The notes under the pieces were generated by a model that searched no databases, was not told the origin of the DNA, and saw only the letters and a list, made by a program, of their open reading frames with translations. Source: Nesterenkonia marinintestina (GTDB taxonomy: Bacteria; Actinomycetota; Actinomycetes; Actinomycetales; Micrococcaceae). Taken from it: a stretch of DNA of 64,000 nucleotides. Shown here one piece after another: positions 1,469 to 60,408 of the stretch; within the stretch, counting starts at the first letter, position 1; each line of letters starts with the position of its first letter. Where the stretch lies: positions 372,001 through 436,000 of the forward strand of contig NZ_JAOEFD010000001.1 of NCBI RefSeq assembly GCF_025420485.1, read 5' to 3'. Made by a program: the position numbers and the translations under genes.

Positions 1469-4400
1469 GTGCCAGATCTAACGTCCAGCCGACTCGCGGA
1501 GGAGTTCCCCGGAAACGAATGGTTGGTCGCCGACCTGTACGACAGGTTCAAGGACGACCCCGGCTCCGTGGACCGCAAGTGGGCAGACATCTTCCGTCGG
1601 CTCGAGGATGAGTCGACGGAGGCCTCTGCGGACCGCGGGTCCGACTCGGACGGGAAGTCGGGGCAGGACGATGCGCGCTCCGGCTCATCGAGGTCGTCGT
1701 CCTCGGACTCGGAGTCTTCGCAGGGGGACTCCGGCACGGATCCGGCCGCGTCCGACGAGACCACGCCGAGCACGGCCACTCCGGCCGACCCCGACGCGGC
1801 CCAGCGCCCGGACTCCGAGAAGTCTGGGGGGAAGTCCGGGGGGAAGTCCGGGGGGAAGACCTCCGAGGACTCAGGGAAGGACTCGGCCAAGACGTCCTCC
1901 AAGAGTTCGTCCAAGAGTTCGTCGAAGAGCACGTCCAAGGGCTCGGACGAGCGCGACGACGAGGGCTCGGACAAGAGCTCTAAGTCGCACAAGGCGCCGA
2001 AGAAGCCCTCGACCCGCCGCTCAGGCGGCTCCGGATCGAAGCCCATCCCTTCCGAGCCCACGCCGGCATCCACCGAGCGGACCGAGGAGAAGCAGGACGA
2101 GGTCACCCAGCTCAAGGGGATCTCCAAGGCGATCGCCGCGAACATGGACGCCTCGCTCAGCGTCCCCACGGCCACCACCGTCCGTGCGGTGCCGGCCAAG
2201 CTGCTCATCGACAACCGCGTGGTGATCAACAATCACCTGCGGCGCACCCGCGGCGGCAAGGTCTCCTTCACCCATCTCATCGGCTACGCCATGCTCAAGG
2301 CGCTGCGGGCCCACCCGTCGATGAACGTCACCTATGACGTCCAGGATGATCGCCCCGTGGCCGTCCAGCCCGCCCACGTGAACTTCGGCCTCGCCATCGA
2401 CATGCCCCGCCCCGACGGCACCCGGGCCCTGGTGGTCCCGAACATCAAGGCCGCCGAGGACATGAGCTTCACCGACTTCTGGGCCGGATACGACGACGTC
2501 GTCTCCCGCGCCCGGGACAACAAGCTCACCCCGAACGACTACGCGGGCACCACGGTCTCGCTGACCAATCCCGGCGGCATCGGCACCGTGCACTCGGTGC
2601 CGCGGCTGTCCAAGGGGCAGGCCTGCATCGTCGGAGTCGGAGCCCTCGAGTATCCCGCCGAGTTCCAGGGTGCGTCGGAGAAGACCCTGCACAAGCTGGC
2701 GGTCTCCAAGATCATCACCCTGACCTCGACCTACGACCACCGGGTCATCCAGGGCGCGGGCTCCGGCGAGTTCCTCAAGACCATCCACGAGCTGCTGCTG
2801 GGCAAGGACGGCTTCTACGAGGAGGTCTTCCAGTCCCTGCGCATCCCCCACCAGCCGGTGCGGTGGTCGGCCGACATCCAGGTCAACCCCGAAGAGCAGA
2901 TCAACAAGGTGGCCCGGATCCAACAGCTCATCCACGCCTACCGCGAGCGGGGCCACCTGATGGCCTCCGCGGACCCGCTGGAGTACCGGATGCGCGACCA
3001 TCCGGACCTCGAGATCGAGAGCCACGGTCTGACCCTCTGGGACCTCGACCGCGATTGGCCGACCGGCGGCTTCGGCGGAAAGCAGAGCCTGCCCCTGCGC
3101 AACATCCTCGGAGTGCTCCGCGACACCTACTGCCGGAACACCGGCATCGAATACATGCACATCCAGTCGCCCGAGGAGCGGCGCTGGTTCCAGGACGAGA
3201 TCGAGCACCCCTACGAGAAGCCCTCCCGCGACGAGCAGTTCCGCATCCTGGGTCGGCTCAACGCCGCCGAGGCGTTCGAGACGTTCCTGCAGACCAAGTT
3301 CGTCGGACAGAAGCGGTTCTCCTTGGAGGGCGGCGAGTCCCTGATCCCGCTGCTCGACGTGATCCTCTCCGAAGCGGCCGACGAGGGACTCGACGAGGTC
3401 ACCATCGGCATGGCCCACCGCGGTCGGCTCAACGTGCTGGCCAACATCGCCGGCAAGACCTACGCCCAGATCTTCCGCGAGTTCGAAGGCCGTGACTTCG
3501 GCACCGGCTCCGGAGACGTGAAGTACCACCTGGGCACCCGCGGAGAGTTCACCTCCGACCGGGGCAACTCCACGTCGGTGTATCTGGCGGCCAACCCCTC
3601 GCACCTGGAAGCGGTCAATCCCGTCCTCGAGGGAGTCACCCGGGCGATGCAGGACCGGCTGGACCGCGGGTCGAGCAGCCTGAACTCGTTCTCGGTGCTG
3701 CCGCTGCTGGTCCACGGCGACGCCGCCTTCGCCGGCCAGGGCGTGGTCATGGAGACGCTCAACCTCTCCCAGCTGCGCGGCTACCGCACCGGCGGCACCG
3801 TCCACGTGGTGGTCAACAACCAGGTCGGATTCACCACCGCGCCGCAGTCGGGCCGTTCGATGACCTACTGCACGGACATGGCCCTGGCCATCCAGGCCCC
3901 GGTCTTCCACGTCAACGGCGACGACCCCGAGTCCGTCGCCCGGGTGGCCGACCTGGCGTTCCGCTACCGGCAGCGGTTCAACAAGGACGTCGTCATCGAC
4001 CTGGTGTGCTACCGCCGGCGCGGTCACAACGAGGGCGACGATCCGTCGATGACGCAGCCGAAGATGTACAACCTCATCGAGGCCAAGCGCTCCACCCGCA
4101 AGCTCTACACGGAGAACCTGGTCGGACGAGGTGACATCACCCAGGAGGAGGCCGACCAGGCGCTGCAGGACTTCCGTCAGCGGCTGGAGCGGGTCTTCAC
4201 CGAGACCAACGCCGCCCAGACCCAGCCTGTACCCACCGTCGGTGAGGACGGCGGAGCCCTGGCGCCGACGGCGAGCGAGGTCGAGGACGAGGCCCCCGGC
4301 CGCGCGGAGGACGACACGGCGATCTCAGCCGAGACCCTGGCCCACATCGGTGAGGTCCACACGAACATCCCCGAAGGCTTCACTCCGCACCCGAAGCTGA

Positions 4401-49060: not shown

Positions 49061-51298
49061 ATGACACCCCACCCCAGCTCAGAGCTCGCCGCCTCCGACG
49101 TCGACGGGCCCGAGGACCTCCATGCCGAGGCCCTCGGTCTGCTCCGTACGCTGACCGGCAGGGAGGCGCCGTTCCGCCCCGGGCAGGTCGAGGCCGTCTC
49201 CGCCCTGGTGACGGAGCGACGTCGGGTGCTGGTCGTGCAGCGGACCGGGTGGGGGAAGTCGGCGGTGTACTTCCTCTCGGCGAGCCTGCTGCGCCGCCGC
49301 GGCCGCGGAGTCAGCCTGATCGTCTCCCCGCTGCTGGCGCTGATGCGTGATCAGATCGACGCCGCCCGGCGCGCCGGTGTCAGGGCGCAGGCGGTGCACT
49401 CGGCCAACGCGCACGAATGGGACTCGGTGCTCCAGGCGCTGCGCGGTGATGAGCTGGACGTGCTGCTGATCTCTCCGGAGCGGCTGGCGAACCCGCAGTT
49501 CCGCGACGAGGTCCTCCCCGGGCTCCTGGGGCACCTCGGGATGCTGGTGATCGATGAGGCCCACTGCATATCCGACTGGGGCCACGACTTCCGTCCGGAC
49601 TACCGCCGCATCGCCGACGTGGTGCGGTCCCTGCCCCGGGAGGTCCCGGTGCTGGCCACGACCGCCACGGCGAACGCCCGCGTGGTCGACGACGTCGCCG
49701 TCCAGCTCGCCCCGGGGTCAGACGGGGGCCCCACATCAGGCGGCACCGCAGGCGGCACCGCTGGCCGCGCCGAGGACGGAGCCGACGGCGGTGATGAGGA
49801 GGTCATGGTGCTCCGCGGTGAGCTGGCCCGCGACTCGCTGCGCCTGGGGGTGCTCCGCCTGCCGGACGCGGCCCACCGCATCGCCTGGGTGAGCGAGCAC
49901 CTGGCCTCGATGGCCGGAAGCGGGATCGTCTACTGCCTGACCGTCTCACAGGCGGAGGACCTCGCTGAGCACCTGACCACCCAGGGCTACGACGTCGCCG
50001 CCTACACCGGACGGACGGACCCGCAGGAGCGGGAGCAGCTCGAGGCGGCGCTGAAGGAGGATCGGGTGAAGGCCCTGATCGCGACCAGCGCCCTGGGCAT
50101 GGGCTTCGACAAGCCGGATCTGGGGTTCGTCCTGCACCTGGGCGCGCCGTCGTCGCCGGTGTCGTACTACCAGCAGATCGGCCGTGCCGGCCGCGCGGTG
50201 GAGTCTGCGGAGGTGCTGCTGCTGCCGGGTGCCGAGGACGTCCGGATCTGGGAGCACTTCGCCCAGGCCTCGATGCCCACCCGCGCCCGGGCCGAAGCCG
50301 TGCTGGACGCCCTGGACGCCCATGCCGGAGCCTCCGAGGGCGAACCGCTCTCCACGGCGAAGCTCGAGGCCATGGTCGAGGTCCGTCGGAGTCCGTTGGA
50401 GCTGCTGCTGAAGGTGTTGGAGGTCGACGGGGCGGTGCGGCGCGTGCGCGGCGGGTGGGTGTCCGCCGGGCGGGGTTGGCACTACGACGCTGAGCGGTAC
50501 GCCCGGATCCTGGATCTGCGCCGGGCCGAGCAGCGGGCGATGCTCGACTACGAACGGCTCTCCGCGGGCCGCTGCCGCATGCGGTTCCTGGCGGAGTCCC
50601 TCGACGATCCCGCGGCGGCGGACTGCCGACGGTGCGACACCTGCTCGGGGCCGTGGTATCCGGAGCAGGTGGGGTCCGAGGCCGTCGCCGAGGCCGAGGT
50701 CGGGCTGGACAGGGTCGGCGTGGCGGTTCCGCCCCGGAAGCAGTGGCCGACGGGGCTCGAGGCCGTGGGGCTGGACCTGCGGGGCCGGATCCCCGCCGAG
50801 GAGCAGGCCGAGGAGGGACGTGTGCTGACTCGGCTCAGCGACCTCGGATGGGGGCCGATCGTGCGAGAAGCCCTGTCGGGCGAGGATGCGGAGGTCAGCG
50901 GGAGGATCCTCGACGGTGCGGTCCGGGTGCTCGCCGCCTGGGACTGGGGTCGGCGCCCCGACGTCGTCGTCGCGGTCCCGTCGAGGAGTCGTCCGCTGCT
51001 GGTCGGATCCGCGGCCCAGGGCCTGGCACGGATCGGGCGCCTGCCCCTGGCCGGCACCTTGGACCTGGTCGACGGTGGGCCCACCGGCTCCCCGGAGTCG
51101 AACAGCGCCTACCGTCTGGCCGGCGTGCGGGGTGCGTTCGCCGTGTCTGCGGAGCTGGCCGCACAGGTGCGCGGACGCCGCGTACTCCTGGTCGACGACG
51201 AGGTCGTCTCCCGCTGGACGTCCACGGTGGCCGCCGGCCTGCTGCGGGACGCGGGAGCCGAATCGGTGCTGCCGTTCGCCCTCGGTCTGCGGGGCTGA
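49061..51298 (+). CDS. RecQ-family DNA helicase with C-terminal phosphoribosyltransferase-like domain
   Basis: A 745-residue protein. Helicase motifs are QRTGWGKSAVYF (60-71) and VIDEAHCISDWGHDFRPDYR (163-182), with HLGAPSSPVSYYQQIGRAGRA at motif VI. The RecQ zinc cysteines lie in GRCRMRF and DCRRCDTCSG (about 504-526). The C-terminal ~110 residues resemble a type I phosphoribosyltransferase or ComF domain: VVVAVPSRSRPLLVGSAAQGL and VLLVDDEVVSRWTSTVAAGLL (about 707-727), the PRPP-loop pattern. No HRDC domain is present. An insertion rich in Gly/Ala (about 225-245) interrupts the motor. The first gene of the accessory block, on its own promoter. Confidence 0.88.
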   Translation: MTPHPSSELAASDVDGPEDLHAEALGLLRTLTGREAPFRPGQVEAVSALVTERRRVLVVQRTGWGKSAVYFLSASLLRRRGRGVSLIVSPLLALMRDQIDAARRAGVRAQAVHSANAHEWDSVLQALRGDELDVLLISPERLANPQFRDEVLPGLLGHLGMLVIDEAHCISDWGHDFRPDYRRIADVVRSLPREVPVLATTATANARVVDDVAVQLAPGSDGGPTSGGTAGGTAGRAEDGADGGDEEVMVLRGELARDSLRLGVLRLPDAAHRIAWVSEHLASMAGSGIVYCLTVSQAEDLAEHLTTQGYDVAAYTGRTDPQEREQLEAALKEDRVKALIATSALGMGFDKPDLGFVLHLGAPSSPVSYYQQIGRAGRAVESAEVLLLPGAEDVRIWEHFAQASMPTRARAEAVLDALDAHAGASEGEPLSTAKLEAMVEVRRSPLELLLKVLEVDGAVRRVRGGWVSAGRGWHYDAERYARILDLRRAEQRAMLDYERLSAGRCRMRFLAESLDDPAAADCRRCDTCSGPWYPEQVGSEAVAEAEVGLDRVGVAVPPRKQWPTGLEAVGLDLRGRIPAEEQAEEGRVLTRLSDLGWGPIVREALSGEDAEVSGRILDGAVRVLAAWDWGRRPDVVVAVPSRSRPLLVGSAAQGLARIGRLPLAGTLDLVDGGPTGSPESNSAYRLAGVRGAFAVSAELAAQVRGRRVLLVDDEVVSRWTSTVAAGLLRDAGAESVLPFALGLRG

Positions 51299-52854: not shown

Positions 52855-54726
52855 TCACAGGCGGTCGGAGCGGACAACCGGCCCCTGCTGAGGCGCCGGC
52901 ACCTCACCCTCCAGCCGGAGGTGGCCCAGGTCGGCGGTGGGTGCGGCGCGGCTCCCCCGGTCGCCGGACGGCGGGTCGGCGAGGAACGGGACGAATCGGC
53001 TCAGGCGCCGGCGCAGGGGCGGGTCGCAGACGTAGAGGAACGTGCCCCGGATCCCGCGGGTCATCAGCACCGTGTAGATGTTGATGACGTAGGCCCGTAT
53101 GTCCTCGTCGGAGAACGTGAGCCCCAGCTTCGGGTTGTTCTCCCTGCCCTTGGGGTCTGCGTAGTGACCCCGGTCGAAGGTCGTCCGGCCGGTCGTCTCG
53201 TCGTAGCGCAGGTCTGGCCCGATGATGACTCCGGCGTAGTTCAGGTCGTAGCCCTGCAGGGTGTGGATGGATCCGACCTCGTCGAGGGCGTTCGGTGAGT
53301 TCGCCCAGTCCTTGTCGGTGGAGTTCCAGCGGAAGCGGCGGCCGTCGAGTGTGAAGTCGTACTCCGTGCGACGCTTCCGCCCCGGCTTCGAGGTCCACTC
53401 CCATGCGTAGCCGGCGGCCATGCGTGCCAGACCGTGCTCTGCGTCGAGGGCGCGAATGTGGTCGTGCATGGCGCCGGCGTCGTCGAACATCGCCAGCTGG
53501 TATTCCCCGAGGTCCAGTCCGTCGGGGTCCCCTCCGGAGAGCATCGCCCGCACCGCGGGGATGTACCCCTCACCCGCGTTCAGCCGGAGCTGCGAGACCA
53601 GGCGGTGATGGCCGCCCGAGTCCTTCGCCCGGTCGATCAGGTCCTCCACAGAACGACGATCGAGGTCCCCGGGGCGGACCGTCTGCTCCTTGTCCAGGAG
53701 CAGGATCTGGTGGCAGCTCTGCTTGCGGATCCAGTCCAGCTGGGTGCGCTGCAGGTCGTCCTCGCCGAAGAGCCGACGGGTGATCTCGGCGAACCGGGTG
53801 TTCTGCTTCGCCGAGGGCTGGTTCGACCTCCGGTTGAGTCGGTGGGCCTCGTCGACGATGAGGACGTCGTAGGGCTGCGGCGACTCACCGACGTCGAACG
53901 GTGTGAGGATCATGCCCTCATCGAGGTCGGGGGTGCGGGCGAAGACCCGCTTCAGCGAGGTGCGCAGCGCCTGCTGCGGAACGACGAAGCCGATGTGTGC
54001 GTCCCGGAAGTGCCCCCGGTTCACCGCCGTGAAGTGGTCGGCGAAGCGGGCCTGCCGGTCGATGTCGCGGTGCATCTCGTCGTCGGTGACGGATCCCAGG
54101 TCCCTGAGGAGCTTGGCCAGGTAGATCGCGACCACCGTCTTCCCGGTGCCGGGTTCGCCCTCGACCACCAGGGGCCCGCCTGCGGAGCTCTGCGCAGCAG
54201 TGATGTCCCGCACCAGCAGCTCCAGGACGGCCTCGACCGCGAGGGCCTGCTCCTCGGTCAGGGTCTTGAACGGTGAGAGCTTGTAGAGGTCGGAGTTGTG
54301 GATCTCCTCGACCGGTCGGGTGAGGAAGCCGGCGCGGTGGAGCCGCTCGAAGACCTCCTCGAAGTCGTCGCGGTACCGCCTGCGGTCGAAGTAGTCGGCG
54401 TCGAGGATTCCCTGATTGCGGTTGAGCACCTCGAAGCGACCGTCGCCGGCGAGCAGCCGGATGAGCTGGGACTCCAGGTCCAGCGCCGCAGACTTGTTGA
54501 ACTCGTCGTGGCGGAACACCCGTGCGCAGGTCAGGGCGCTCTTCGTCGGCGACTCGAGGTGCTGGTGGAGCCGCTGGTCGGCGCTGAGCGTCTCGCCGAC
54601 GTAGACCTGCGAGTCGTCGTGCAGGGCGTACACCACCGGCCAGCTCCGATACCGCGGAGCCGCCTCCACGGCGCGGTCGAGCTCGTCATGGCCGAAGGCG
54701 AAGACGTCGACCTCAAAGCCGGTCAT
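52855..54726 (-). CDS. GIY-YIG nuclease fused to DUF2075 superfamily 1 helicase
   Basis: A 623-residue two-module protein. Residues about 30-105 are GIY-YIG-like: VYALHDDSQVYVGET supplies the two tripeptide strands, R52 and H56 (RLHQH) and E85 (LDLESQLI) the likely active-site residues. Residues about 150-600 are the DUF2075 P-loop domain: GEPGTGKT (190-197), VDEAHRLNRR (291-300), and late HTLQGYDLNYAGVIIGPDL with VLMTRGIRGTFLY, the helicase motifs V-VI seen in Schlafen-type and UvrD-like proteins. It probably cuts or remodels nucleic acid. Its ATG lies inside the MazG-like gene (14-base overlap). Target and trigger unknown. Confidence 0.85.
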   Translation of the reverse strand: MTGFEVDVFAFGHDELDRAVEAAPRYRSWPVVYALHDDSQVYVGETLSADQRLHQHLESPTKSALTCARVFRHDEFNKSAALDLESQLIRLLAGDGRFEVLNRNQGILDADYFDRRRYRDDFEEVFERLHRAGFLTRPVEEIHNSDLYKLSPFKTLTEEQALAVEAVLELLVRDITAAQSSAGGPLVVEGEPGTGKTVVAIYLAKLLRDLGSVTDDEMHRDIDRQARFADHFTAVNRGHFRDAHIGFVVPQQALRTSLKRVFARTPDLDEGMILTPFDVGESPQPYDVLIVDEAHRLNRRSNQPSAKQNTRFAEITRRLFGEDDLQRTQLDWIRKQSCHQILLLDKEQTVRPGDLDRRSVEDLIDRAKDSGGHHRLVSQLRLNAGEGYIPAVRAMLSGGDPDGLDLGEYQLAMFDDAGAMHDHIRALDAEHGLARMAAGYAWEWTSKPGRKRRTEYDFTLDGRRFRWNSTDKDWANSPNALDEVGSIHTLQGYDLNYAGVIIGPDLRYDETTGRTTFDRGHYADPKGRENNPKLGLTFSDEDIRAYVINIYTVLMTRGIRGTFLYVCDPPLRRRLSRFVPFLADPPSGDRGSRAAPTADLGHLRLEGEVPAPQQGPVVRSDRL

Positions 54727-55033
54727 ACTTGGTGCTCCGTCCGCGGGCCTTCTCCGCCGGGTACTTCTCTCGGGTGGTGGCCAGCTTCCGGCGCACGATC
54801 TCCGCAGGGTCGTGTCCGAGCCGGTCGGCGAGCAGGAGGCAGTAGGTGAGCACGTCGGCGAGTTCGGATTCGACGGCGTCGGGCTCGGCGTCCTCCGACC
54901 ACTGGTAGCACTCGAGCAGCTCACCGGCCTCCACCGCGATGCTCTTGGCCAGGTTCTGCGGCGAGTGGAACTGGGACCACTCACGTTCGTCCACCATCCG
55001 GGCGATCTCTCGGGTGAGCGCGCTGCTGTCCAT
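54713..55033 (-). CDS. MazG-like nucleoside triphosphate pyrophosphohydrolase
   Basis: A 106-residue all-alpha NTP-PPase. The Mg-binding ExxE...ExxD pattern is EAGE (35-38) and ELAD (57-60), in VEAGELLECYQW and ESELADVLTYCLLLADRLG. Proteins of this type hydrolyse (d)NTPs to monophosphates, clearing damaged nucleotides or lowering nucleotide pools. ATG 55033 is seven bases behind TAGCCT and lacks a ribosome-binding site, so it is probably leaderless; the longer open frame upstream crosses the divergent promoter. It overlaps the nuclease-helicase gene by 14 bases, so the two are coupled. Confidence 0.88.
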   Translation of the reverse strand: MDSSALTREIARMVDEREWSQFHSPQNLAKSIAVEAGELLECYQWSEDAEPDAVESELADVLTYCLLLADRLGHDPAEIVRRKLATTREKYPAEKARGRSTKYDRL

Positions 55034-55040
55034 AGCCGTC

Positions 55041-55046
55041 AGGCTA
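55041..55046 (-). promoter_or_regulatory. -10 box of the MazG/helicase operon
   Basis: TAGCCT on the reverse strand ends seven bases before ATG 55033. On the forward strand TACCGT (55058-55063) is five bases before the Nudix ATG, so two divergent promoters lie within 35 bases. Confidence 0.6.
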
Positions 55047-60167: not shown

Positions 60168-60408
60168 TCTCAGGGTCTCCTCTCTGTTCTGCGTTCGGTG
60201 GTCTTTCGGGCACACCGGTGCAGAGAGGGGCATCGACGCACATGGCGGTCTTCGATCGAAGCCCACGGACGATGCCGAACGGCGACCCTGAGGGTCGGGG
60301 CGTCCGGCGCGGCTTCCGTAGGCCACTACCGAGGACCGGGGCACGTGCGGTGCCACGCCTCTCCCTGCTCTCCGGTGAGAGCCTCTGGGGAACAGTCTCC
60401 CATACACG

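Follow-up and report, generated by a model that had tools for sequence, protein, structure and literature searches.

The window analyzed here, a 64,000-nucleotide stretch of contig NZ_JAOEFD010000001.1 from Nesterenkonia marinintestina, carries on its minus strand a module of two overlapping genes. The upstream gene (54713 to 55033) encodes a 106-residue MazG-like all-alpha NTP pyrophosphohydrolase, predicted to be of the DCTPP1 (dCTPase) type, and the downstream gene (52855 to 54726, ATG at 54726) encodes a 623-residue protein in which a GIY-YIG nuclease domain (residues ~29 to 105; 54412 to 54642) precedes a superfamily 1 (SF1) helicase/translocase domain of Schlafen group 3 (SLFN-g3, formerly DUF2075; residues 186 to 568; 53023 to 54171). 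The C-terminal tail of this protein (52855 to 53010) is unconserved in the family alignment and probably disordered, with pLDDT below 50 at residues 586 to 623. The end of mazG at 54713 lies past the start of the helicase gene, giving an overlap of 14 nt (54713 to 54726), and a putative leaderless-type -10 box, TAGCCT (55041 to 55046), stands 7 nt before mazG. The first-pass annotation, made from the sequence alone, had described the overlap, a single promoter, and the combination of domains, and had proposed on these grounds that the two proteins act together, possibly in defense against phages.

The overlap was borne out at its coordinates and strand, and it is a property of the family. It measures 14 nt in 15 of 15 loci from Nesterenkonia, its family, and its order in which MazG stands beside a full-length helicase; among these relatives, the helicase of locus L035 has no detectable MazG. 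In a second set of 80 actinobacterial loci (Microbacteriaceae, Micrococcaceae, Brevibacterium, Nocardioides, and others, with a few genomes repeated from the first set), MazG adjoins the helicase in 78 and overlaps it by exactly 14 nt in 74, so that within the GIY-YIG subfamily the two genes are almost never found apart; helicases lacking an adjacent MazG do exist, as in L035 and L084. Unannotated loci were given gene calls by a codon-usage script, and these calls are approximate. Exactly 6 to 7 nt ahead of the mazG start, 71 of 73 modules have a TANNNT box, compared with 9 of 1,460 random ATG or GTG codons, and the module thus looks as if it has its own leaderless-type promoter, in keeping with the single promoter first suggested. 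At one locus of Herbiconiux moechotypicola (L092:3009-6161), MazG (3009 to 3311) and the helicase (from ~4470) lie ~1.1 kb apart, possibly through an insertion between them. The genomes of Leucobacter massiliensis (L110 and L111) and Micropruina (L090 and L091) each contain the module twice, with identical MazG; the copies are on one contig in opposite orientations in the former and on two contigs in the latter.

The larger protein matches PF09848 (SLFN-g3_helicase) over residues 186 to 568 with an E value of 1e-61 (209.7 bits against a cutoff of 24), and the Walker A and B motifs, DE-H, and Arg557 are invariant across the family alignment; by this profile match and its intact SF1 motifs, we assign it to the SLFN-g3/DUF2075 helicases. 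Scanned by itself, the window protein falls just under the cutoff for the GIY-YIG family PF01541 (3.5e-4; 21.2 bits against 22.6), and all 24 family members scanned match this profile, the best at 5.4e-7. Residues Y33, Y42, G44, R52, H56, E85, and N102 are invariant among 56 aligned sequences, and we classify the protein as a GIY-YIG protein on the basis of the family matches and the invariant Y, Y, R, H, E, and N residues. An AlphaFold model (pLDDT 86.5, pTM 0.86) found RecD2, Dna2, UPF1, nsp13, and human SLFN14 as its best Foldseek matches, all of them partial.

The smaller protein matches the MazG-like family PF12643 (2.7e-18), and by sequence it also matches dCTP pyrophosphatase 1 chains (2.7e-17, 36 to 37% identity). 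Its AlphaFold model (pLDDT 88) superimposes on mouse dCTPase (6sqw) with a TM score of 0.79 at 36% identity, and in a structure search it was nearer to mouse and human DCTPP1 and an archaeal relative than to other MazG proteins. The metal ligands E35, E38, E57, and D60 (ExxE...ExxD) are invariant in the family alignment (invariance was counted over 56 and 57 aligned sequences), as are Trp19, His23, Asn27, Trp45, and Tyr64, which align with Trp47, His51, Asn55, Trp73, and Tyr102 of DCTPP1 and which we take to line the base pocket. With PF09848, PF01541, and PF12643 all matched and the named catalytic motifs invariant across the family, both the domain combination and the intact active sites described at the outset were upheld, and the MazG assignment can be narrowed further than the first-pass annotation had taken it: by sequence, fold, and metal site, the protein is of the DCTPP1 type, with the corresponding activity predicted. 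Human DCTPP1 hydrolyzes dCTP as well as 5-methyl-, 5-formyl-, and 5-halo-dCTP (PMC7162842). The window protein shares with DCTPP1 (RS21-C6) its metal-site residues and conserved tryptophans; it differs in being bacterial and coupled to a nuclease-helicase, and it is known here from sequence and model.

When compared with PADLOC models, the pair proved not to be a member of any PADLOC-defined system. The helicase gave only partial matches, the best at 1.6e-7, with no full-length match to one system, and MazG gave none. Nhi likewise couples a nuclease to an SF1-type helicase, and the window protein shows weak similarity to Nhi and AbiO (PDLC02372, 3.6e-5; PDLC02350, 2.8e-6; to 2e-15 in the wider family), but this is confined to residues 156 to 209 in the ATPase core, its nuclease is GIY-YIG, and it is paired with MazG; whole-protein similarity to Nhi or AbiO, including the nuclease, was not found. 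Two PADLOC candidates share single stretches with it, PDC-S14 the GIY-YIG part (1.6e-7) and PDC-S41 the C-terminal part of the helicase (6.2e-6), both as partial matches to candidates lacking a MazG model. The window proteins match none of the mREase_IV or McrBC families and by homology are no known type IV enzyme; those families are matched only by genes that neighbor the module elsewhere. Schlafen proteins have the SLFN-g3 helicase domain in common with the window protein (SLFN14 as a structural match, SLFN11 as a very weak profile match), but by Pfam the latter has a GIY-YIG domain in place of the Schlafen core RNase domain and on that criterion is not a Schlafen. A 2025 preprint on bacterial Schlafens is cited in PMC12839542. 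Our literature search, in which subscription papers and preprints were thinly covered, returned no description of DUF2075 together with MazG and GIY-YIG, and judging by titles and abstracts, none of the papers naming DUF2075 concerns defense. By analogy, the module probably works like nuclease-helicase immunity of the kind seen in Nhi, AbiO, and type IV enzymes.

The module is distributed patchily within the genus. An intact helicase is present in 13 of 30 Nesterenkonia genomes (the assembly containing the window is 2.58 Mb), decayed copies are present in two (G017 and G023), and the remainder have none. On a tree of pnp, the pattern of presence requires 9 changes, compared with a mean of 9.5 for shuffled labels, and the helicase of G006 is close to those of G025 and G008, while pnp places G006 elsewhere. 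Helicase identity to the window's copy is ~55% within the genus, where that of pnp is ~88%, and the GC content of the module is 3 to 13 points below that of its surroundings in all 16 loci tested. Two patterns had been named in advance as counting against the proposal. For the first, presence in all close relatives at the same site, what we found was patchiness and, as described below, other cargo at one site; the second, two genes usually found apart, is contradicted by the near-constant pairing described above.

That site belongs to one clade of the genus. In G016 it is occupied by the module, which has on one side a pyridoxamine-phosphate-oxidase-like gene with a terminator-like hairpin after it and on the other a DUF2975-like/HTH gene pair (names read from the sequence). 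The DNA absent from sister genomes amounts to ~2.27 kb, the two module genes alone. Between the same flanks (84 to 93% identical DNA), G028 carries a type I restriction-modification (RM) system (HsdM, 1.4e-264; HsdS, 2e-59; HsdR-like, 2e-26), and next to the same left flank G019 carries a BREX system (BrxA, 1e-61; BrxB, 3e-50; BrxC, 0; PglZ, 2e-182; BrxL, 4e-279); the right flank was not found in G019. The other occupants are a helicase remnant with other DNA, including an ISL3 transposase, in G023, and other, seemingly degraded DNA in G011, and an McrBC system lies in the same zone of G018, ~10 to 13 kb away. Nothing else found here argues as strongly for a defense role as the replacement of the module by BREX or type I RM. 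A BREX set headed by a small mads_1-like HTH gene lies at L203:2987-15654, in a sister genome within the genus.

The window's own copy lies at a different site, among ordinary neighbors (genes for a transglutaminase, a NUDIX protein, RecQ, and pnp), and no defense island was found immediately around it. The RecQ-family helicase (49061 to 51298, plus strand) has an extra C-terminal part and matches PADLOC PsyrT at 1.2e-204, although we noticed no adjacent gene resembling its partner PsyrA. The Actino-pnp cis-regulatory RNA (Rfam RF01688) upstream of pnp (60244 to 60340, minus strand) is known and expected. Summed over some 60 loci, PADLOC families numbered 112 in genes beside the module and 86 in genes ~8 kb away, an enrichment too weak for us to use as main evidence; type IV enzymes account for five of the module-adjacent genes and are absent from the families listed for the distant set.

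SauUSI-like type IV enzymes (PLD, helicase, and DUF3427; PADLOC mREase_IV) adjoin the module in seven loci. They resemble the window's protein in being nuclease-helicases but belong to another helicase family, and their PLD nuclease is unrelated to GIY-YIG/SLFN-g3. Some of these neighbors have a NUDIX pyrophosphohydrolase of their own, in a parallel design (L033, L043, and L069 in Actinobacteria and a Lactiplantibacillus plasmid, where the genes run NUDIX, type IV enzyme, MazG, GIY-YIG helicase). On a Priestia plasmid, the order is MutT, an MrcB_N/HNH protein, MazG, SLFN-g3 helicase, and type I RM genes, and distant relatives in Paenibacillus and Limosilactobacillus have a DUF3578 gene and type III CRISPR genes alongside. 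We considered a NUDIX partner as a general rule for SauUSI-like enzymes and dropped it, since a NUDIX gene accompanies them in only 2 of 18 loci of the class sample; we treat the arrangement as a parallel and not as a law. A SauUSI-like type IV enzyme is also encoded in the genome containing the window, next to a NUDIX gene (L281; G000:C5:16974-18740) and on a contig other than that of the module.

The pairing, already found to hold for the GIY-YIG subfamily, extends beyond it, which the first-pass annotation had missed. Among 197 genomes sampled from the class, 34 have a helicase match; MazG is also present in 27 of these and is adjacent in 18 of the 27. All six GIY-YIG modules with a full-length match share the overlapping layout. 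MazG adjoins 12 of 28 distant helicases, whether upstream, downstream, or divergently oriented, and in three small genomes a downstream MazG overlaps the helicase by a few nucleotides. Most distant helicases carry another N-terminal domain, with a D...ELK motif (VDVILAG...VVVELKQW); no named Pfam family matches this domain, which reads like a PD-(D/E)XK nuclease. MazG is common apart from the helicase in one genus of the sample (g49). Of 25 plasmids with MazG, 12 encode the helicase as well, where 0.014 would be expected, the two genes always being on the same strand and within ~10 kb of each other. These plasmids include examples from Priestia, Lactiplantibacillus, Ligilactobacillus, Marivirga, Halomonas, and the archaeon Halalkalicoccus, so that the linkage spans Firmicutes, Bacteroidota, Proteobacteria, and one archaeon; the Lactiplantibacillus and Ligilactobacillus helicases have the GIY-YIG domain. 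The window's own GIY-YIG subfamily was found neither on viral contigs nor, at comparable identity, on plasmids. Mobile phage cargo was considered and rejected, as IMG/VR holds no relative; a relative at 49% identity is present on a 10.6-kb contig labeled "Bacteriophage sp.," for which we do not accept a phage origin.

SLFN-g3 helicases whose N-terminal domain is PD-(D/E)XK-like have a feature of their own, a near-invariant leader, GCGGCCCGACGGGCTTCC...GGACATGCCCCCACCCGCACGAGTCACTTCGTGCTGCCTGGGGG, immediately 5' of the start codon. It occurs in 20 of 297 genomes of the class, and each of the 20 exact matches to the pattern precedes a helicase gene of this type, for example at L222:3333-3465, L231:3339-3471, and L234:3338-3470 (minus strand) and at L224:396-528 (plus strand). 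The leader has no match in Rfam 15, and none was seen upstream of GIY-YIG modules. It may control translation, because the predicted fold, for which covariation is minimal, has its G-run base-paired. Three loci (L222, L227, and L231) have two copies of the leader ~2 kb apart, and in L222 the second copy stands before a further helicase-family gene whose N-terminal domain is similar.

Taken together, the exchange with BREX and type I RM, the type IV neighbors, and the linkage to the same type of MazG across phyla lend genomic support to the joint role in phage defense that was first proposed, and we regard a defense function as likely. More specifically, we lean slightly toward an anti-phage module in which a GIY-YIG/SF1 nuclease-helicase is the effector and a dCTPase-type MazG clears dCTP or C5-modified dCTP. 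The SF1 helicase/translocase would load on and move along foreign DNA, most likely phage DNA that is C5-modified or replicating, and the GIY-YIG domain would cut the DNA so engaged; that DNA cleavage is the effector step seems fairly probable. Modified cytosine as the trigger is suggested by two things only, the neighbors and the type of MazG. As for the part played by MazG, the use that we favor, tentatively, is the removal of C5-modified dCTP, which would keep such nucleotides out of host DNA and so spare the host from its own nuclease; our reasons are the type IV neighbors and the parallel pair of NUDIX and type IV enzyme. That MazG would instead, or in addition, lower the dCTP available to the phage during infection is a rather unlikely use.

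The preferred division of labor could be reversed, with the nuclease-helicase sensing phage DNA and the dCTPase emptying the dCTP pool until phage replication stops. Systems based on dCTP deaminase or dGTPase do halt phage replication by nucleotide depletion, the DCTPP1-type fold prefers dCTP, and the retention of MazG while the N-terminal domain changes between GIY-YIG and PD-(D/E)XK-like fits either an effector or a shared accessory. We nevertheless consider this unlikely: a 106-residue dCTPase that has no visible regulatory domain and is translated first would be constantly active, and sensing alone would not need an intact nuclease, yet all catalytic residues are invariant.

Still less probable are two readings without phage defense. 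The small first gene, overlapping start, leaderless-type promoter, and near-obligate pairing are compatible with a toxin-antitoxin or addiction-like locus, in which MazG would be the antidote to a toxic helicase-nuclease and the pair would persist because it secures its own locus. Against this speak the divergent and reversed gene arrangements seen across the wider family, helicases without an adjacent MazG (L035 and L084), and the lack of plasmid-borne members of the GIY-YIG subfamily at comparable identity, and the replacement by BREX or RM and the type IV neighbors point to defense. Housekeeping DNA repair combined with cleaning of the nucleotide pool, the rival named in the first-pass annotation, agrees with the ordinary genes around the window's copy and with the known presence of GIY-YIG proteins, SF1 helicases, and MazG in repair or house-cleaning, but we judge it the most improbable of all. 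The module is absent from more than half of the genus and distributed no better than at random on the pnp tree, it evolves fast, it is low in GC and has decayed copies, and patchiness and replacement by defense systems at one site together led us to reject plain housekeeping as the main reading.

If the preferred reading, a nuclease-helicase effector with a dCTPase-type partner, is correct, this would be a common two-gene immune module missing from PADLOC. A nuclease directed at modified or replicating DNA may then need a pool-cleaning partner so that host DNA does not become self-marked. Beyond Nesterenkonia, it is a doubtful but conceivable extension that these loci form a widespread class of bacterial and archaeal immunity, with an SLFN-g3 helicase, an exchangeable N-terminal nuclease (GIY-YIG or PD-(D/E)XK-like), and a dCTPase-type partner that removes C5-modified dCTP to guard against autoimmunity, so coupling restriction to sanitation of the nucleotide pool. 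The preferred reading would also give a bacterial setting to the Schlafen-family helicase domain and to DCTPP1, a human cancer-related enzyme, and an SLFN-g3 helicase beside a DCTPP1-like MazG would serve as a marker for finding further systems of this kind.
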